DNA of 64,000 bases, from NCBI GenBank assembly GCA_026417735.1, contig JAOACR010000004.1, positions 139,001-203,000 of the forward strand, given 5' to 3'. The notes beneath the pieces are model-generated. The model made no database searches and was not told where the DNA came from. It saw only the letters and a program-made list of their open reading frames with translations. Below, piece after piece: positions 6,667-16,568 of the stretch. This DNA is from Kiritimatiellia bacterium (GTDB taxonomy: Bacteria > Verrucomicrobiota > Kiritimatiellia > PWTM01). Position 1 is the stretch's first letter, and each line of letters opens with the position of its first letter. A program made the position numbers and the translations under genes.

Positions 6667-9600
6667 TTAGGAGTGCGGTGGCTCGCCGACCCGCACGCGG
6701 CGCCACGGCCGCAGTTCCACTGGCCCGAGCAGACCGGATGGCCGCAATGTCGCCTCCACCCGCTCAAACTTTGTGATGTTGGTGCGCGTTACGCGCTGAT
6801 TGAGCGGCCGTTTTGCGTCCCCGATCAGACGATTCGCCCAGGAGTTGATCACCTCGACACGTAATTTCACAGGGACAGCCGCTGGACCTTCGGCGTCGGG
6901 CAGCTCGGTGCGGTAAGGGGCCGTCCAGAGGGTGCCGAGGTCGCGTTCTCCCCACCACACGCCGCCAATCTCATGGAGCTGGCCGAGATCCAGCGTCCAG
7001 TGCAAACCGTCCTGGCGTGGCAGCTCGGGCACGTTCGTTTCATACACCGCGCGGCCGGCATAAAACCGGACACCCTCGTCTGGGTGCGTGGTCCAGTCGA
7101 ACAGTTGCTCCGTCTTCACCGTCGCAGGTGCGCCGCGGCCGTCAAGGAACCGCACCACCCATTCCCCGCCGACGCGTTGCGGCGGGGGCAGAGGAGGCAC
7201 CTCCACCGGCAGGACTCTCCCGTCACTCCACCGCACCTCATAGCGGCCGGCGACCCACGCATCGAGCCAAAGCCGGCCGTCGGAACGGCTCAGCCGCGCG
7301 ACCGGCCACGACCGCGGCTCTCGCTCGGAGGAGGGCCAGATTCTCTCGCCCTCACGCCACAGCTCCACCGGATGCACGGCGCCGGACGGGCGCCGGAACA
7401 CGACGAAGACCGATCCCTCGGGGGGAAGGCGCAGCGGTACCACTGTACGTCCACTCTCCTCTCTCCACAGCGCAACCTCTTCGATCGTGCCGGTGAGCGG
7501 ATCCCACAGCTCCGGAACACGCCCTCGGACCCGAAATGAGCACTCCACCTCTTCGTAGCGGTCCGGCAGGTCGAAACGGCGGCGATACTTCGTATCGAGA
7601 ACGTCGCGCCAGGTCCATCGATTCACGATAAAGTACACGTCGGCCGTGTCGGTCCGCCGGTGGATGCGGTCGAGCCAAGTGTTCGGCTGCAGGCTCTTGA
7701 CGATCACATCCGGCTCGATGCCCAGTCGAGCCAGTTCCGCGCGAGGCGAGTTGGTGGAAATTCGTCCACCGCCCCAGAGCCGCTCCGCGAGCGCCGCAAA
7801 CTCCCGGTCCGCCGCCTCTCCGCCGGACAATCCCGTGCGATGGACCGGACGCGGACCGACCACCGGTACCCCGGCCTCGACAAGCCGTTCGACGACCCGC
7901 AGCGCCTCCAGCGACATCACGCCCGCTGAGGGCAGCGAGAGCAGACGGTAGCTCATGCCGTCCGGCAAGATGATCCGGCCGTCCTTCGCGGAGACGCGAG
8001 TCCGCAGTGCTTCCTCGTTGATCACGTCATAGTCGTAGTCCGGCCAGACGCCGGCGGGATTGTCTTCGCGAAGGCGCACGAAGTTCGGGACATGGTCGCC
8101 GTAGTAGTGGAGCACGTCCGCGACGAAGCGGCCGGCCTGCAGCAGCGCCTGCGCGTGGTGCACGTAGGCAAAGAAACCGTCCGCTCGCGGCCACCAGGTG
8201 ACGTTTGGATTGAAGTGGGTGCCGGCAAAATACTCCTGACCGGGCAGCCCCGCAGAGGCGGGCGAACAGGTGAGGGTGTGCAGCATCACGTGGTTGAGCC
8301 CTTCGCAGAACGCGCGATCGAGATCGTGTTTGAGATCGCGGGGCGCCTGCTCCCAGTGCGGGCCGATCGAGGTGAACGATTCCGCCTGCATGCGCGGCCG
8401 ACCGTAGATGTGCGCGGCGCTCGCGCCCTGTTTGATGAAAAAGCGGAAGTTCTCTTCGACGCGGTGCCGGTCGTTGCGAATCCAGAACTCACCGGTTGGA
8501 AAGTCACAGATCCCCATCGTCTGCAGCGCGTCAATCGGCGCGGCATGAGGGCCGCCGGTTTCCGCCTGGAGCTTCAACCCCCGTGAGCGGGCCAGTTCGG
8601 CGAGCCGCCGCACGTGTTCCGCGAACAGGTCACCGAGTGTACGCCGAAAGTCCGCGAGGAAACGGTTGGACCGTTCGCGGCTGTCGAGGATGACACCGGC
8701 CAGCGCGGGCAGCCACGGTTCGAGGTCGTAGCCGCGCCGCTGCCGGAACTCGCGAGGCATGGCGCGCGTCCAGTTGATCGGCCCCAGTTCCCAGCTGTCG
8801 GTTTGGATTGCTGCCCAGGTGCGCCCGACGTGCGGCCCGCCCGCCGCCAGCAGCCGCTCCACCACCTCCCGCCAGTAGGCGTCCACCATCGCCGGGTCAA
8901 GATGGTCCACCGCCCAGCCCGCCCATCCCTCACTGCAGGTGGACACATGTGAGCCGGCGAGCGTGCTGCAAAAACGGAAGAGCCTCCAGCGCCCCGCTGG
9001 CGGTGCCCACTCAAGAACATCCGGCTCCACCCATCGCGGCGCCAGCACCACCACCTCACCCAATGGCACCGCCTCCCCCGGCAGGGTGGGTTCGGGCCGC
9101 ACCAGATGCTCCGCCGGCGGTGCGTTGAACGGGCCGGGATAACGGTGGTACGCCTTTTGTTCAAAATCGCGGATCCGAGGCGTTTCATCGGCCGGCAACC
9201 GCAGTCGCCGTCCCTCGCAGAAGAGTTCGATCTCTGCGACCTGCACGTTGCGCGGTGCCTGCGGCGAGCGTGGATCCCAAGCGCCGGTCACCAGCAGCCG
9301 CACCGCCGCCACGTCGCGCGTGGGAAACCTCAGCGAAATCGCGTCGGTTTCCGACGCGTTGGTGAACACCGCCACTGTGGTCATCCCGCCGTCCGGGCCG
9401 ACCACTTCCACGCGCCCGTCCCGCGGGCCGTATCGCGGCCGCGGTAGGACCGCGATCTGATCCACCCTCACCGGCGACGGCAGACGCACCTCCAGCCACA
9501 CCGGCGCGGTCGGCGCGGGGCCCGCACCCGGTTTCGCGGCTGCGACCCAGAACGTTTTGGGATCCCCATCCACCACCCGCCCGACCGGAAACTCCGGCGA

Positions 9601-10164
9601 ATCAGCGCTGCTGCGCACTTCAATGCCCCGCTGGCCAGCCGCGGGCCATCGCACCGCAACGATCGCGACGTCATCGCACACACCCTCGCGCCCTGGCGGC
9701 CTTGGCAGCCGGGTTCGCCGCGGCCCCCCGCCCTCCACCAACACTTCCGACCAAACAAGCCGACGCGTCGAGTCCTCCGGTCGGACGTGCGGCCCTCCGA
9801 GATTCCAACCGCTCATGATGTTCAGGCTCATCTCAAAGCCGTACCGCGAGGCCTCATCCAACGCGAAACGGAAGAGACGAAGCCATTCATCCGAGGCGAA
9901 GCGGGGACCGGCGGGAACCCTGCGGTGACCATCTTGTGCGGAGCCGTCGGCATCAATGATGGCGGCGCCGCCCATGCCGTGTCGCTGCATTTCACGGAGG
10001 TCGCGCGCAATCGCGTCCGCGTCCACATTGCCGTTCAGCCACCACCACCAGCAGCGCGTGCGGGCGGAGGGCGGCGGTTCCCGGAAGGAGGTTTCCAGCT
10101 CGTCCGGCCGCACCGTCCCCACCAACCATGCGGCGGCGATCAACAGACAGCGCGAGCGCTTCAT
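6667..10164 (-). CDS. GH106-like secreted glycoside hydrolase (alpha-L-rhamnosidase family)
   Basis: A large 1165-residue exported enzyme. It starts at an ATG at 10164 preceded by a strong Shine-Dalgarno sequence (AAGAGGAGG), and has a signal peptide (MKRSRCLLIAAAWLVG). The N-terminal pattern of PSARTRCWWWWLNGNV followed by a REMQRHGMGGAAIID block is typical of GH106 and relatives. Family-like segments follow in the catalytic part: TDSWELGPINWT, RRGYDLEPWLPALAG and LQAETGGPH. Galactose-binding-like beta domains appear within and after it (about residues 190-330 and the C-terminal 150). It probably removes rhamnose or a similar sugar from plant or algal polysaccharide. It converges with the FHA gene; no transporter or regulator is adjacent. 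Confidence 0.75.
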   Translation of the reverse strand: MKRSRCLLIAAAWLVGTVRPDELETSFREPPPSARTRCWWWWLNGNVDADAIARDLREMQRHGMGGAAIIDADGSAQDGHRRVPAGPRFASDEWLRLFRFALDEASRYGFEMSLNIMSGWNLGGPHVRPEDSTRRLVWSEVLVEGGGPRRTRLPRPPGREGVCDDVAIVAVRWPAAGQRGIEVRSSADSPEFPVGRVVDGDPKTFWVAAAKPGAGPAPTAPVWLEVRLPSPVRVDQIAVLPRPRYGPRDGRVEVVGPDGGMTTVAVFTNASETDAISLRFPTRDVAAVRLLVTGAWDPRSPQAPRNVQVAEIELFCEGRRLRLPADETPRIRDFEQKAYHRYPGPFNAPPAEHLVRPEPTLPGEAVPLGEVVVLAPRWVEPDVLEWAPPAGRWRLFRFCSTLAGSHVSTCSEGWAGWAVDHLDPAMVDAYWREVVERLLAAGGPHVGRTWAAIQTDSWELGPINWTRAMPREFRQRRGYDLEPWLPALAGVILDSRERSNRFLADFRRTLGDLFAEHVRRLAELARSRGLKLQAETGGPHAAPIDALQTMGICDFPTGEFWIRNDRHRVEENFRFFIKQGASAAHIYGRPRMQAESFTSIGPHWEQAPRDLKHDLDRAFCEGLNHVMLHTLTCSPASAGLPGQEYFAGTHFNPNVTWWPRADGFFAYVHHAQALLQAGRFVADVLHYYGDHVPNFVRLREDNPAGVWPDYDYDVINEEALRTRVSAKDGRIILPDGMSYRLLSLPSAGVMSLEALRVVERLVEAGVPVVGPRPVHRTGLSGGEAADREFAALAERLWGGGRISTNSPRAELARLGIEPDVIVKSLQPNTWLDRIHRRTDTADVYFIVNRWTWRDVLDTKYRRRFDLPDRYEEVECSFRVRGRVPELWDPLTGTIEEVALWREESGRTVVPLRLPPEGSVFVVFRRPSGAVHPVELWREGERIWPSSEREPRSWPVARLSRSDGRLWLDAWVAGRYEVRWSDGRVLPVEVPPLPPPQRVGGEWVVRFLDGRGAPATVKTEQLFDWTTHPDEGVRFYAGRAVYETNVPELPRQDGLHWTLDLGQLHEIGGVWWGERDLGTLWTAPYRTELPDAEGPAAVPVKLRVEVINSWANRLIGDAKRPLNQRVTRTNITKFERVEATLRPSGLLGPVELRPWRRVRVGEPPHS

Positions 10165-10230: not shown

Positions 10231-10899
10231 TCACGGAGCTGACCCGCGAGTGATCTGAATCGGGACGGTTGCGCGCTTCAGAAACTCCCGCGAGGAGGCG
10301 GGGTCACCGTCGGTCGGACCCGCTCCAATCCGCACCAGCAGGTTCGCCAGCGCACCCCGACACAGCGGAATGTTCGCCTCCACCACGTTCAGCACTGGCA
10401 CCGCGTCGGGCAGGTTCATCCGCGCACGTACCCGCTCCGCCGGGGACACGATCTGGATCGGCTGATGACACGCCACACAACGTCCCCGGCGGCCGATCTC
10501 CTCCTCCAACACCCACAGTTTCTGCCCGCAATGGTCGCAGGAGATTTTGAACTGCCGCTCGGCCTGGGCACGGTAAATGAACACGCCCGCCGGCACACCG
10601 GCCATCGCCGCCTCCCGGACCAAGGCCGCCGCCGCCTCGAGCAGCCGGTGGTCCAGAAAGTGCACCAGCACCGCGGCCGCGTCCGCCTGGCGCAGCCGCG
10701 CTTTCCAGGCGGTATCCTCCACCGTCACAGCCGACACCGCCTCGAGGAACACATGATGGTTGGCAATGTCGACGACTCCCCCGGACGGCGAATCGGGCAG
10801 CAGCGCCGCGACAAAGCGAGCCGCAATCTCCGGCTCCGCGGCCAGCACCGGCACAAACCGCCGGCGTCGCTCTTCAGCTCTGGGTATCGCCGCCGTCAT
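10231..10899 (-). CDS. Uncharacterised protein with a four-cysteine zinc ribbon
   Basis: I do not recognise this 222-residue protein. It has no signal peptide or membrane segment. Residues 1-115 look like an alpha/beta domain. A compact zinc-ribbon motif follows, with CDHC at 121-124 and CVAC at 141-144 spaced 16 residues apart, and then about 75 residues that include a hydrophobic stretch (NVVEANIPLCRGALANLLV). The ATG at 10899 is preceded by AAGGAG. It is the last gene of the TPR/ExbB/ExbD set, 112 bases after the second exbD, so a role with that machinery is inferred from position only. The motif could bind zinc or act in protein contact. Confidence 0.6.
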   Translation of the reverse strand: MTAAIPRAEERRRRFVPVLAAEPEIAARFVAALLPDSPSGGVVDIANHHVFLEAVSAVTVEDTAWKARLRQADAAAVLVHFLDHRLLEAAAALVREAAMAGVPAGVFIYRAQAERQFKISCDHCGQKLWVLEEEIGRRGRCVACHQPIQIVSPAERVRARMNLPDAVPVLNVVEANIPLCRGALANLLVRIGAGPTDGDPASSREFLKRATVPIQITRGSAP

Positions 10900-11011
10900 C
10901 CGCTCCTTGCCTACACACTTTCCCGCCACGAGGCAAGCCCGCTGCCGTTGCACGACCAACGTGAACCCCGCCCCGCCGGTGGCGTGCCCTCCCGACGCAA
11001 CGCCCGAGAGG

Positions 11012-11422
11012 TCAGTTCACACTGATGACAGAAAGGTTCGACAGCTGGTGCCGGGCGCAGAGGTTGAGCACCTTCACCAGCAGTTCGTGAGGCGCCGCGC
11101 CGGAACACAAAATCAGAATCGTCTGTTTGCGGTCCAGCTCCGCGAGCCGTTGAATCAGCCCGTCCAGGTCCGCCTCGCGGACCGGCTTATCGTTGATGGT
11201 GTACCCATCGTAGAAAACGCCGATCCGGATCAGGTTTTTGGGCACCTCCAGCCGGTCGGAGCGCTGCTCGGGGCCGGGACGCGACACGTCCAGGTGCGCG
11301 AGGACGTCAATCGGTTTGATCGTGACCAGAAAGTAGACCAGAAGCTGGAACACGACGTCGATCATCGGCGTCATCGGCAGTTCCGGCTCTGGTGCCTCTT
11401 TGGGTTTGCGCTTTCGGGCCAT
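11012..11422 (-). CDS. exbD: ExbD/TolR-family protein (second copy)
   Basis: This 136-residue inner-membrane protein is the smaller component of an ExbB-ExbD type proton channel, which turns proton motive force into work on envelope proteins. A basic cytoplasmic N-terminus (MARKRKPKEAPEPELP) leads into one membrane helix with the conserved MTPMIDVVFQLLVYFLV signature; its aspartate is the proton-carrying residue of the family. The remaining 100 residues form the periplasmic domain. It lies 21 bases downstream of the other exbD. Two different ExbD subunits next to one ExbB is a common arrangement in PVC-type genomes, but the partner that uses the energy is unknown. Confidence 0.85.
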   Translation of the reverse strand: MARKRKPKEAPEPELPMTPMIDVVFQLLVYFLVTIKPIDVLAHLDVSRPGPEQRSDRLEVPKNLIRIGVFYDGYTINDKPVREADLDGLIQRLAELDRKQTILILCSGAAPHELLVKVLNLCARHQLSNLSVISVN

Positions 11423-11443
11423 CGCGCCGCCAGCTCCCTTGGG

Positions 11444-11854
11444 TTAGGCCTTTTCCTTGATCGCCGCGAACTTGATCCGCCAAAGACCGGCTTCACTGCA
11501 GATGTCCATCACGCGCCGGATGTACTCGTGGCGAGCCTTCATGTCGCCGCGGATCACTACCGGCAGCGTCTGACCGTGCCGTGCGACCGCGCCGCGGAGG
11601 ATCGAACGCAGCGCTGGCAGCGAGAGACGCTGCCGCGCGATGAAGATGCGCCCTTCGCTGTCCACGTCAATGTTGATCGTGCGAGGGTCCTTTCGCTCGA
11701 CCGCCTTACCGTCCGGCGCCATCGCCAGCCGGAGGTCCATCTCGATTTCTTTTTGCTGTTGCGCGATCGTGACGATGAAGAAGATGATGAGCTGGAACAC
11801 GACGTCGATCATCGGCGTCATGTTCAGGCCCATCTCTTCCCGGCGTTTGCGCAT
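11444..11854 (-). CDS. exbD: ExbD/TolR-family protein (first copy)
   Basis: A 136-residue ExbD/TolR protein with a short basic N-terminus, the family signature NMTPMIDVVFQLIIFF (conserved aspartate in the single membrane helix) and a periplasmic domain of about 100 residues. It lies 34 bases after the ExbB-like gene and just before a second, diverged exbD. The copies agree mainly in the membrane helix and differ in the periplasmic domain, so they probably form a mixed pair rather than being redundant. With ExbB it should make a proton-driven stator complex. No TonB or TonB-dependent receptor gene is near, so the complex may serve the adjacent TPR proteins instead. Confidence 0.85.
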   Translation of the reverse strand: MRKRREEMGLNMTPMIDVVFQLIIFFIVTIAQQQKEIEMDLRLAMAPDGKAVERKDPRTINIDVDSEGRIFIARQRLSLPALRSILRGAVARHGQTLPVVIRGDMKARHEYIRRVMDICSEAGLWRIKFAAIKEKA

Positions 11855-11888
11855 GACCGTAGTTCCCCGGCGACCGCCCGGGCGGCGG

Positions 11889-12728
11889 TTATTCCTCCTC
11901 CGCGACCACCTCGACGTTGCGCAGCGTCTTGATCAGATCGAGCGTCAGGCCCTCCATACCGAGAATGATCTTCGTCGCGGTGTTGCGGAAGAAGGTGTAG
12001 AAGCCGACGGAGGGGATCGCGATCATCAGCCCCGCCGCGGTGGTCCAGAGCGCCTGGCCGATGTTTTTCGCCAGCAGCGCGGTCTGCGCGGCACCGGCCT
12101 CCTGCATCGCCAGCGTCATGAACGCGTAGATCATGCCCTGCACCGTGCCGAGCAGCCCGAGCATCGGCGCGAGGTTTGCGCAGACGTTCAGGTAGGCGAC
12201 GCGCTGCAGCAGCTTCTCGCTCTCGAGGTCCGCCGCCACGCCGACGATGTCCTGAATCACGTCAAAGCCTTCCTGCACGTTCTGGAAACCGGCGGTGAGA
12301 ATGCTCGCCAGCGGCGTCGGGCGGCTCTCGCAGTGTTTGATTGCCTTCATCACGTCCCCTTGCGACATCGCCTCCCGCACGTCGTTCACAAGATCGGCGG
12401 GCGCGATTTTCTTCTCCTTGATCGTGATGAAAGAGTCGATGATCAGCGCCGCCGCCGCCACCGAACACAGCCCGAGCGCCAGCCACAGCACTGCGCCGAG
12501 CCAGCCGCTGCCCGTGACGACGGACCAGAACCCCATCCCTTCGCCGCCCTTCGCCTTCGCCTCGGCGGCCTGCGCCTCCGGCGTCAGCGTGGTCGTCCCC
12601 GGCGCAGGCTGCGCAGCGGCCGGCTGCGCCGCCGGCTGTCCCGCGGCCGGCTGTTGCGCGCGCGCCACCCACGTCATCGCGATCACTGCCAGTGTCGCCA
12701 CCGAGACCCATCGGATCCACGTCTTCAT
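11889..12728 (-). CDS. exbB: MotA/TolQ/ExbB proton channel protein with N-terminal signal sequence
   Basis: A 279-residue ExbB-like channel subunit. The chosen ATG at 12728 follows GAAGGGACGAG and gives a clear signal peptide (MKTWIRWVSVATLAVIAMTWVARA). A low-complexity linker rich in Gln, Pro and Ala (about residues 25-60) follows, then a first membrane helix (GWLGAVLWLALGLCSVAAAALI). The canonical MotA/TolQ/ExbB core comes after that, with LNVCANLAPMLGLLGTVQGM and the helix near AAGLMIAIPSVGFYTFF. A signal peptide plus extra periplasmic segment is absent from E. coli ExbB but seen in longer homologues. It sits between the small TPR protein and the two ExbD genes and should assemble with them in the inner membrane. 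Confidence 0.88.
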   Translation of the reverse strand: MKTWIRWVSVATLAVIAMTWVARAQQPAAGQPAAQPAAAQPAPGTTTLTPEAQAAEAKAKGGEGMGFWSVVTGSGWLGAVLWLALGLCSVAAAALIIDSFITIKEKKIAPADLVNDVREAMSQGDVMKAIKHCESRPTPLASILTAGFQNVQEGFDVIQDIVGVAADLESEKLLQRVAYLNVCANLAPMLGLLGTVQGMIYAFMTLAMQEAGAAQTALLAKNIGQALWTTAAGLMIAIPSVGFYTFFRNTATKIILGMEGLTLDLIKTLRNVEVVAEEE

Positions 12729-12812
12729 GCTCGTCCCTTCTTTGTCAGTTCGCCGGTTGCACTCCGCGGCCCGCAGTCTAGCGGGGCGAGCGGGCCGCCG
12801 CAACGTCATCGG

Positions 12813-13598
12813 CTAGGCTTTCCCTTTGGCGGCCGCCGCCTCCGGCGACTCCGGATACTCCTGCAGGAGTCGGCGGTAAAATTCTTTCGCGCGACCGTCG
12901 CGGTTTTTCTCCAGCGCCTGCGCCGTGCGCAGCAGCGCCGCCGGCATCAACGCGGTCTCGCGTTCGAAGAACAGCACGACCCGCAGATAGTCGCGAATCG
13001 CGAGCTCGATGTTGCCCTGCGCCTGCCGGATGTCGCCTCGCATCAGCAGGGCGCGACCGGCGTCGAGGCGGTTCTCGGACTTGATCAACGCCGGCAGCTG
13101 CTTTTCCACTTCCGCGAACTGGCGCGCAGCGATCAGCGCTTCGCGATACGCCCAGCCGACCTCGGGGTCGTTCGCGAGCGCTGGGTAATCTTTGATCAGC
13201 GTGTCATAGACCTTCAGCATTGCCGCGCCGTCGTTTTTCGCGCGGTACGCGCGCACCAGGAGCAACCCCGCCTCGCGGTCCCAGCGCAGAAACCGCAGGT
13301 CCGTCATGATCTTCTGCAGGATGGGGATCGCCTCGTCGTAGCGGCCCGCCTGCACCGCCGCCGCGGCGCGATCGAACTCCGCCGGCTTGTCGGTGCCGGC
13401 TTCCGTGTATTGATCGCGTGTGAGCGTGAGCTGCTGCCCATCCGGTCGAATCAGCACCACCGTTCCGTCCGAGCGTGCGCGGATGGTGGCGCCCTCAAGC
13501 CGTTGACCGGTCCTCAACACCACGTACGGCGCACCGGGCGCGCCGCCCGCCAGAACCGCCGCCACCGCGGCGGCCCACCACCATCGTCTCGTCGTCAT
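12813..13598 (-). CDS. Exported TPR-repeat protein (small)
   Basis: A 261-residue protein with a signal peptide (MTTRRWWWAAAVAAVLAGGAPGA). A short beta-rich segment follows (about residues 25-60, VLRTGQRLEGATIRARSDG, reminiscent of small SH3-like domains), then TPR-like helical repeats from residue 75 to the end. Typical repeat phrases are AGRYDEAIPILQKI and KEFYRRLLQEYPES. Its start codon overlaps the stop of the large TPR gene in an ATGA, so the two are probably translationally coupled. It is likely a periplasmic scaffold that links the large TPR protein to the ExbB/ExbD complex; that link is inferred from operon structure. Confidence 0.75.
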   Translation of the reverse strand: MTTRRWWWAAAVAAVLAGGAPGAPYVVLRTGQRLEGATIRARSDGTVVLIRPDGQQLTLTRDQYTEAGTDKPAEFDRAAAAVQAGRYDEAIPILQKIMTDLRFLRWDREAGLLLVRAYRAKNDGAAMLKVYDTLIKDYPALANDPEVGWAYREALIAARQFAEVEKQLPALIKSENRLDAGRALLMRGDIRQAQGNIELAIRDYLRVVLFFERETALMPAALLRTAQALEKNRDGRAKEFYRRLLQEYPESPEAAAAKGKA

Positions 13599-16483
13599 CG
13601 CTGGGTGCCTCCTGGGGCCGCGGCCGGCGCGCCCGCCGGCGCCGGCGTCGGCTCCACGGTTGCGGCCTTCAACCGCAGCGCCTGCTGCCGCCGCCGGACC
13701 TCCGCGGCCGCGGGCAGGTCGCCGAACTTCGCCAGATATCGGTCACAGGCGCTGATCGCGTCGTTGAACCGGCCGAGCTCCTCGTGCACATCCATCACGT
13801 GCCGCAGTGCCTCCTCGATCATCGGCCGAATCCGCTCGTTGGTCTCATCCGCCAGCAGAATGATCCGCTCATACGATGCCGCCGCTTGCCGCAGCGGTTC
13901 CTCCGCCGCCGCGGCCTTGTTCTCCGCCTTCAATTTCGCGGCGAACTCTCGGTAGACCTTCGCCAGCTCCATGTTCGCCTGGTTCACCACAACCGGGTCG
14001 GTCGCCACCTTGAAGATCTCGTTCAGCGTCGCGATCGCCTCCGGATATTTTCCGGTTTCCCGGTAGGCCTTCGACAGCAGCGTCCGTGCCTCATAGAAGA
14101 GCCCCGTGCGGGGATAGCGCGTCATCAAGTCTTCCAGCTTCTCGATGGCTTTCTCCTTCTGCCCCGCCTCGTACGCCGCGACGCCCAGCCCGAACAGACT
14201 GCGTTCGAGCAGCGCGCGGTCGGTGGCGCCCCCCGCCAGCACCTTTTCGAAGGCCTGAACCGCGGCGGGATACTTCTTGCCGTCGAGGAACCACTGGCCA
14301 ATGCGCACAAACTGCTCGGGCGTGTACAGCTTCGAGGGCTCGCCGGGTTTCTCGCCGGCCATCATCTTGCCGAACGCGTCCTCCGCGATGTCGTAGCGCT
14401 GGATCTCCACCGCAGCGCGAATCAGTGAAAACAGCGCGCTCTTGCCGTCTTCCGAGTTCGGATACTCGCGCCCGAGCCGTTCGAACGTCTTTGCCGCATC
14501 GTCCGAGCGGCCCAGCTCCAGTTGAATCGCCCCCACGAGGTTGATCGCTTTCGGCGCCAGCTCCGAGTTCCGATAGTCCTTCACAAACGACTCGAGCGCG
14601 GCGACCGCCTCCGCGCGGATCTTCGCCTTCGCTTCCCCTTCCGCGGGCTGCTTGAACCGACAGTACCCGATGTAGAAGCGGGCCTTCTCCACCAGTTCCG
14701 CCGCTTTCTTCACCTCTTCGGCGGTCTTGGCGTACGGATTGTTGTCCCGCGCCGAGAGCCACTCGACCACGCGCTGGTAGGACTCCGCCGCCTCCACAAA
14801 GCGGTTCAGTCGCATCTGGCAGTCCGCGAGGCTGAAGAGCGCCAGCGCCCGGTTGTGGGAAGGGGGACTCTCCTTCACAAATCGCGTGAACGCCTCGAGC
14901 GCCCCCTCGTAGTCCTGCATCTCGTAGCGGTCCCAGCCCAGCGTGCTCAGCGCGCGAAGGAAGAACTGGTCCTGCGGGTAGTTGTCAATGATCTGTTTCA
15001 AGAGATCCCGCGAGCCGGCCGTGTCCCCCTTCTTCTTCAGCATGGTCGCGGCCAGGAACAGCACCTGCGGCGCACGCTCGTGCTTCGGATAGGCGCTCGC
15101 AAAGGCCTTGTAGACCTCGATGCAGGAGTTCGTGTCGCCCTTGTCGAAATAGTGCTTGCCCAGCGCCAGCAGTGCCAACCCACTGCTCGCGTCCGCCTCG
15201 CGGGTTTCGCGGATGTGCGCCAGTGCCGCTTCCAGCTCGAGCCGCCGGCCGGTTTCCGCCCAGGAGATCAGCAGCGGGGTGAACAGGGAGCCCATTTCCG
15301 AGGCCTTTGGAAACGCGTTGATCACCTTCAGCGCGACGCCGGCGGCCTCCGCGTACTTCTTCTGCAGAAAATAGTCATCCACGAGCCTCTGCTGCGCGGC
15401 GACCGCCTTCTGCATGTGCGCTCCCCAGTCAATCCGGATCTCGCGGTTGAACTTCTGGCGCACCATCGCAACCAGCTTTTCCGTTCGCGCTCCGGCCTCT
15501 GGCGCCCACTCGCTGTCGGGGTACTTCGCGAACACGTTCGCGTACTCGCTCACCGCGGCCGCGTACGCGCGCAGCTGTTCATCACCCGACTTCTTCTCTG
15601 CCTCCTTTTCGTACAGTTCCCCCAGCAGGAAACGGGCGTACGCCATCGGGCTCTCGCCCAGCGGCAATTTCTCCTGCCGCAGAATCTCGTCCACCCCCTT
15701 CATCAGATCCATGTTGTTCCGCAGCAGCTTGATCGCCGCCTCGGGGCGCCCGCGCACAATCTCGATGTTCGCCATCGCCGCGATGGACTGGCAGAATGCG
15801 ACATCGATCCCCTCCTTGCCCCACTGGATCTCTTCGCAAAGCTTCCAAGCGCGATCCAACAGCTTCTTTTGCTCGTCGCCCTGCTTGGTACGGCCGACCT
15901 CGATCAGCAGCTGGCACAGGTCCACCTGAATCCTCCGCGCGATACCCGGTTCAGGTTTCGCCTTCAGGATGTTCTCGAACGCCGCAATCGCGCCTTCTCG
16001 GTCGCCCGCGCGCATCAGCATCTGCCCAAACCGATAGGCGGCGTCCATGTAGAAGCGCCGCAGGTCCGGATCGGTCGGCACCGTCTTGTACTGCGCGAAA
16101 AATTCCTGGTAGAGCTTGCGCGCGCGGTCGATCTCACGGTGGCGGTACATGTGGTTGGCCAGCGCCAGCCGGGCCGCCTGGGTTTTCGGATTCTCCGGCG
16201 GCATCTCGCGCAATAGCTTCTCGGCCTCATCGAACTTTCGGCGGGAACCGAGAATCTCCACCTGCACGACCCGCGCACGCTCCTTCAGCGCGGGATTCTC
16301 CAGCACCATCTGGTCGATCATCCGCTCCGCGTAGTCCGCGAAGCCGATCTCCACAAGCTTCGACGCGAAGACGAACTCCTGGTCGACGTCGTCCTGCGCC
16401 CGCGCGGCACCCACCACCAGCGCCGCGGCAGCCGCCGCCCGCGCAATCCACGCCCGCCGCAATGTCCAGTCCGACAGCCTCAT
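13595..16483 (-). CDS. Large exported TPR-repeat protein, 962 residues
   Basis: Starts with a signal peptide (MRLSDWTLRRAWIARAAAAAALVVGAARA) and is then almost wholly made of tetratricopeptide-like repeats, about 20 in all. Recurrent phrases include YEGALEAFTRFVKESP, DDAAKTFERLGREYPNSE and YPAAVQAFEKVLAGG. There is no enzymatic motif and no membrane segment after the signal peptide, so it should be a long periplasmic solenoid that binds other proteins. It is the first gene of a six-gene set (TPR, TPR, ExbB, ExbD, ExbD, zinc ribbon) with a promoter-like sequence at 16541-16568. The family resembles TPR proteins found next to exbB/exbD in PVC genomes; the cargo is unknown. Confidence 0.8.
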   Translation of the reverse strand: MRLSDWTLRRAWIARAAAAAALVVGAARAQDDVDQEFVFASKLVEIGFADYAERMIDQMVLENPALKERARVVQVEILGSRRKFDEAEKLLREMPPENPKTQAARLALANHMYRHREIDRARKLYQEFFAQYKTVPTDPDLRRFYMDAAYRFGQMLMRAGDREGAIAAFENILKAKPEPGIARRIQVDLCQLLIEVGRTKQGDEQKKLLDRAWKLCEEIQWGKEGIDVAFCQSIAAMANIEIVRGRPEAAIKLLRNNMDLMKGVDEILRQEKLPLGESPMAYARFLLGELYEKEAEKKSGDEQLRAYAAAVSEYANVFAKYPDSEWAPEAGARTEKLVAMVRQKFNREIRIDWGAHMQKAVAAQQRLVDDYFLQKKYAEAAGVALKVINAFPKASEMGSLFTPLLISWAETGRRLELEAALAHIRETREADASSGLALLALGKHYFDKGDTNSCIEVYKAFASAYPKHERAPQVLFLAATMLKKKGDTAGSRDLLKQIIDNYPQDQFFLRALSTLGWDRYEMQDYEGALEAFTRFVKESPPSHNRALALFSLADCQMRLNRFVEAAESYQRVVEWLSARDNNPYAKTAEEVKKAAELVEKARFYIGYCRFKQPAEGEAKAKIRAEAVAALESFVKDYRNSELAPKAINLVGAIQLELGRSDDAAKTFERLGREYPNSEDGKSALFSLIRAAVEIQRYDIAEDAFGKMMAGEKPGEPSKLYTPEQFVRIGQWFLDGKKYPAAVQAFEKVLAGGATDRALLERSLFGLGVAAYEAGQKEKAIEKLEDLMTRYPRTGLFYEARTLLSKAYRETGKYPEAIATLNEIFKVATDPVVVNQANMELAKVYREFAAKLKAENKAAAAEEPLRQAAASYERIILLADETNERIRPMIEEALRHVMDVHEELGRFNDAISACDRYLAKFGDLPAAAEVRRRQQALRLKAATVEPTPAPAGAPAAAPGGTQR

Positions 16484-16540: not shown

Positions 16541-16568
16541 ATCCTACCCCACCGGCCCCGCCGGTCAA
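16541..16568 (-). promoter_or_regulatory. Likely sigma70-type promoter of the TPR/ExbB/ExbD operon
   Basis: On the minus strand TTGACC and TAGGAT are separated by 16 bases. The predicted transcript start is near 16534, about 50 bases before the ATG at 16483. It lies in the 229-base gap between this operon and the ferrochelatase gene; I saw nothing else in that gap. Motif match only. Confidence 0.45.

Follow-up and report, generated by a model that had tools for sequence, protein, structure and literature searches.

A conserved TPR-ExbB-ExbD unit of Kiritimatiellia and Lentisphaeria and its probable toroid-headed transducer, encoded at a distance in one genome

We analyzed 64,000 nucleotides (the window) of a 3.09-Mb Kiritimatiellia genome (G000) and found that five of its genes, encoding two TPR proteins, one ExbB, and two ExbD proteins, probably supply the motor and the periplasmic scaffold for a force machine of the TonB/TolA type, the transducer of which, TOR, is encoded in trans. 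For a long time, to our knowledge, TonB and TolA were the only proteins known to let the inner membrane exert a pull on the outer one, until vWA-headed transducers joined them in 2025 (PMC12204202). The toroid-headed TOR would be a further class of force transducer, with conservation in two bacterial classes and a scattered distribution in the Verrucomicrobiota.

As a sequence-only reading of the window had proposed, we found six ORFs running in one direction on the minus strand (16483 to 10231), each backed by a codon-usage gene caller. TPR1 (13595 to 16483) encodes a TPR solenoid of 962 residues with a signal peptide and no lipobox (Pfam TPR_6, 1.7e-40). TPR2 (12813 to 13598) encodes a second TPR protein of 261 residues (TPR_6, 2.5e-12), and the two genes overlap at an ATGA (13595 to 13598). 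They are followed by an ExbB/TolQ-family stator of 279 residues (11889 to 12728; MotA_ExbB, 1.4e-25), by ExbD1 (11444 to 11854; ExbD, 8.4e-26), and by a second, diverged ExbD, ExbD2 (11012 to 11422; ExbD, 2e-16). The last ORF (10231 to 10899; 222 residues) encodes a C-X2-C...C-X2-C zinc ribbon and matched no Pfam family above the cutoff. The most likely start of ExbB is 12728 rather than 12809, and that of the zinc-ribbon ORF is 10899. The one promoter-like site, 5' of TPR1 on the same strand (16541 to 16568; TTGACC-16-TAGGAT), is present and weak, with 9 of 12 matches and 0.3 expected in shuffles. The ATGA coupling and the set of one ExbB and two diverged ExbDs are thus as first described. 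Downstream of the zinc-ribbon ORF, we observed a large GH106 alpha-L-rhamnosidase gene (6667 to 10164).

We found that TPR1 is predicted by AF2 to be an all-helical solenoid (mean pLDDT, 88) and that it has orthologues in 49 of 58 relatives. A fold search with TPR1 returned generic TPR/HAT solenoids at low TM-scores, plus a distant match to a Campylobacter flagellar periplasmic scaffold. In TPR2, an N-terminal stretch is conserved (APYVVLxxGxRxEGxxIRARxDG). Both proteins carry signal peptides and the lipobox is almost absent family-wide, so TPR1 and TPR2 should be soluble periplasmic proteins.

The motor residues are kept in the stator proteins. In an alignment of 74 ExbB sequences, T195 and T230, the pore threonines, are each 98% conserved, and P239, the TM3 proline of ExbB, is invariant (100%). 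The transmembrane aspartate is present in every aligned sequence of both ExbD1 (D17, 72 of 72) and ExbD2 (D22, 71 of 71). ExbB matches the structures of TolQ (8odt) and ExbB (5sv0), and ExbD1 matches the ExbD structure 7ajq. In an ExbB tree, the operon ExbB falls into a clade of its own (support, 98/98) that contains none of the genome's six ExbB paralogues, and support within that clade is partly weak. About 90% of the family share a signal-peptide-like ExbB N terminus ending in AQ, which is unusual for ExbB.

The same reading had described a six-gene operon, and we found that five of the six genes belong together. The order TPR1-TPR2-ExbB-ExbD1-ExbD2 is kept in 32/32 relatives (fetched loci whose contig reaches ExbD2), which is far beyond chance; among the loci, L054 has split reading frames and L046 an extra ExbD2. 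These five genes form a unit conserved across Kiritimatiellia and Lentisphaeria that probably encodes a proton-driven envelope machine. The zinc-ribbon gene has homologues in 30 of 58 relatives, lies near the operon only in this genome and one sister (G001), and occurs in four genomes (G009, G028, G039, and G050) that lack both TPR1 and full-length TOR. We therefore rejected its product as a subunit of the machine, and the gene is probably a bystander.

The conserved sixth gene is TOR, not the zinc-ribbon gene. Using a TOR alignment to scan named genomes, we found 80 loci, which belong to Kiritimatiellia or Lentisphaeria wherever the group is named. In 57 of the 71 loci with room upstream to be counted, ExbD2 lies directly upstream of TOR. 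This order reaches Oligosphaera (L140) and Victivallales (L153), and the same gene order is found in distant Verrucomicrobiota families (e.g., L173, L177, and L180). Of 195 Verrucomicrobiota genomes sampled, 80 contain TOR. Six genomes (G009, G023, G028, G039, G046, and G050) have neither TPR1 nor full-length TOR, a shared absence that favors the pairing; the match in G039 is to the toroid only. One genome (G043) has the five genes, and TOR was not detected in it; there, mutL is directly 3' of the five-gene unit (L036).

TOR is a protein of about 490 residues with one transmembrane helix, a Pro/Glu-rich disordered linker, and a globular head. TonB and TolA dock to ExbB and TolQ through the SHLS motif, Ser-X3-His-X6-Leu-X3-Ser (PMC12215075). 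We found that the TOR of this genome carries S38-X3-H42-X6-L49, with the last Ser replaced by Val. Among 71 aligned proteins, the Ser is present in 63 and the His in 60; the roughly 11 TORs without the His have Pro in one sub-clade and Asn in L034. The AF2 model places the transmembrane helix at residues 35 to 54 and a confident helical toroid at 144 to 470 (pLDDT mostly >90), and pLDDT is below 50 in the linker at 55 to 72 and 88 to 138. Foldseek matched the head to squalene-hopene cyclase and GH76 (alpha/alpha)6 toroids, with TM-scores of up to 0.71 of the target. Consistently with this, sequence profiles gave SQHop_cyclase and Prenyltrans matches. The head is thus modeled as a squalene-cyclase-like alpha/alpha toroid of about 330 residues; TOR has no TonB match, and its head is not a vWA domain.

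Because the folds closest to its head are those of squalene-hopene cyclases and GH76 mannanases and many of its residues are invariant, TOR could be mainly an enzyme of the cyclase or GH76 type that is tethered to the membrane and that the motor merely positions. The invariant columns include H206-G207-E208-T209, Y242, E253, and R469, and some of these residues may line the toroid lumen. However, the acid motif of the cyclases, D-X-D-D, is absent from them, a D.DD string after residue 130 being found in just 25 of 136 proteins, and the docking motif and linker match those of force transducers. We consider a chiefly enzymatic TOR unlikely and favor TOR as a transducer.

In the genome that contains the window, TOR is encoded outside the window at 67692 to 69182 of the same contig (C4, minus strand; L060:8693-10183), about 80.8 kb from ExbD2. 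It is the single full-length match of its kind in the genome and is 83% identical to the copy that adjoins ExbD2 in a congener (G002). Among congeners, TOR is adjacent to ExbD2 in G002 and G006 and detached in G001 and G003, where the surroundings differ in G003. Since the gene is adjacent in some congeners and detached in this genome and others, the detachment looks secondary. Between ExbD2 and the zinc-ribbon gene, we found no TOR remnant, whether in the window or in G001, where 936 bp separate the two genes. That gap is apparently noncoding (L020, 4586 to 5523) and corresponds to about 110 bp in the window's species. The detached transducer is a warning that gene neighborhood alone can hide a key partner.

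The location of TOR bears on the proposal that the stator drives the TPR proteins itself, without a transducer. In favor of this view, the TPR genes adjoin those of the motor, the arrangement is conserved, and TOR is not adjacent here. However, TPR1 and TPR2 have signal peptides only and as a rule no lipobox, no Ser-X3-His anchor helix was found in either, and in most relatives a dedicated TonB-like TOR comes after ExbD2; this genome encodes one too. We consider direct drive very unlikely, and this part of the sequence-only reading was not supported. A distant TonB or TolA partner had been named there as the finding that would count against the proposal; what we found is a variant of it, a TonB-like TOR about 80 kb away. 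The preferred reading, in which the motor drives TOR, most likely applies in this genome, as judged from orthology, from how the genes are linked in relatives, and from the docking motif. Counting against the pairing are the nonadjacent TOR here, the genome with no detectable TOR (G043), and the TORs without the His.

TonB, TolA, TolB, and Pal had been reported missing. We confirmed that none is found in the operon neighborhood, but all are encoded elsewhere in the genome, so that "no TonB" is true only locally. The genome has seven ExbB-type and eight ExbD-type genes. One set is ordered like the TonB2 system of Vibrio, with a receptor, TtpB-, TtpC- (long ExbB), and TtpD-like genes, ExbB, ExbD, and TonB, and includes a TPR protein (L015, 3852 to 12545, C7). 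A TolQ-TolR-TolA-like set lies on C3 (L014), with TolB-Pal apart from it on C17 (L018). Another locus, a paralogous operon, has the order TPR-TPR-ExbB-ExbD-ExbD with an SxxxH-anchored vWA protein (L012, 7686 to 14607, C9). Two sets have no recognized transducer: a PPIase gene with an ExbB-ExbD pair and a large TPR gene (L013, 7208 to 12653) and a large TPR-ExbB-ExbD set (L016, 6669 to 10226). The genome has three TonB-dependent receptor plug domains, none near the operon. The TonB, TolA, and vWA transducers each adjoin their own ExbB and ExbD, and none of them is an obvious orphan awaiting the operon's motor. In E. coli, ExbBD can stand in for TolQR in part, and vice versa (PMC12215075), but these adjacent partners, the separate ExbB clade (98/98), and the conserved neighbor TOR make it very unlikely that ExbB, ExbD1, and ExbD2 are a spare energizer shared with the TonB (C7), TolA (C3), or vWA (C9) transducer. 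The conserved unit, its ExbB clade, and its separation from the TonB and TolA systems instead support the earlier suggestion that the genes would encode a distinct energized envelope machine.

By analogy, the TOR system would work like TonB and TolA and would most resemble the systems with vWA transducers that Williams-Jones et al. described in PVC bacteria in 2025 (PMC12204202). Those systems likewise have one or more TPR genes, one TolQ-like gene, and two heterologous TolR-like genes, and their transducers join an SHLS helix through a disordered linker to a globular head that is not of the TonB kind. They differ in that the head has a vWA fold rather than the alpha/alpha toroid of TOR, and the ExbBs fall into separate clades; the present genome carries both systems (vWA, L012). 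That paper mentions neither toroid nor squalene, and we found no description of a toroid-headed transducer in the literature searched, which covered ExbD in combination with squalene cyclase or prenyltransferase, ExbD in Kiritimatiellia, and alpha-alpha toroids in connection with TonB. With TonB-ExbB-ExbD, the system shares the proton motive force motor residues, the Ser-X3-His docking helix, and a Pro-rich linker. In contrast to TonB, TOR has no TonB C-terminal domain, and the operon has two ExbDs and has TPR proteins where a TonB-dependent receptor would adjoin. Tol-Pal (TolQRA-TolB-Pal-CpoB) is similar in its layout of motor and transducer and in having a TPR protein (CpoB), but the operon locus has no TolB or Pal, and TolQRA (L014) and TolB-Pal (L018) are separate. 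Vibrio TonB2, with TtpB2, TtpC2, and TtpD2, also has a TPR protein encoded with ExbB and ExbD (PMC6957404); it differs in having a real TonB, and its look-alike in this genome is a separate locus (L015). A defense system, such as one of the Zorya type (ZorAB), was rejected, with no PADLOC match.

In the mechanism that we propose, a pentamer of ExbB with ExbD1 and ExbD2, probably as a heterodimer, would use the proton gradient. The motor would bind the Ser-X3-His helix of TOR, and the disordered Pro/Glu-rich linker would carry the toroid head into the periplasm. There, we infer, the head would pull on or remodel a partner that TPR1 and TPR2 hold as a scaffold. Our best guess is that the machine moves a polymer (glycan or protein) between the outer membrane and the periplasm or, alternatively, that it tethers the outer membrane. 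The six genes, with TOR as the sixth, are stably linked and the group has cultured members (Oligosphaera ethanolica, L140), so the cargo could be identified experimentally.

Tandem TOR copies are found at three loci (L110, L122, and L188). Their docking halves are 86 to 100% identical, and their heads are 49 to 73% identical. We tentatively suggest, as a possibility that is more doubtful than the mechanism itself, that one docking module of helix and linker bears interchangeable heads (toroid, vWA, TonB, and TolA) in the same group and that the toroid machine with its TPR scaffold imports or moves envelope polymers, e.g., glycans. If so, tandem TOR copies would offer a single motor a choice of competing heads.

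A possible functional lead for the toroid machine comes from Akkermansia (G147). There, one locus has the order ExbB-ExbD-ExbD-TPR (1,077 residues) followed by a TPR-like protein of 340 residues (L186, 641.8 to 649.1 kb), and the toroid proteins are encoded elsewhere (L188). The ExbB lies on a long branch in the tree and is not assignable to the toroid or the vWA clade. The locus lies at about the position of the mucin utilization locus MUL1 of A. muciniphila and may correspond to it. MUL1 is described as encoding a complex in the periplasm that mucin uptake requires (see the reviews PMC12418764 and PMC12928651). At L188 (14713 to 17888), the two tandem toroid proteins have identical N-terminal 145 residues and heads that are 73% identical, and their genes sit beside GH95, sulfatase, and other genes.
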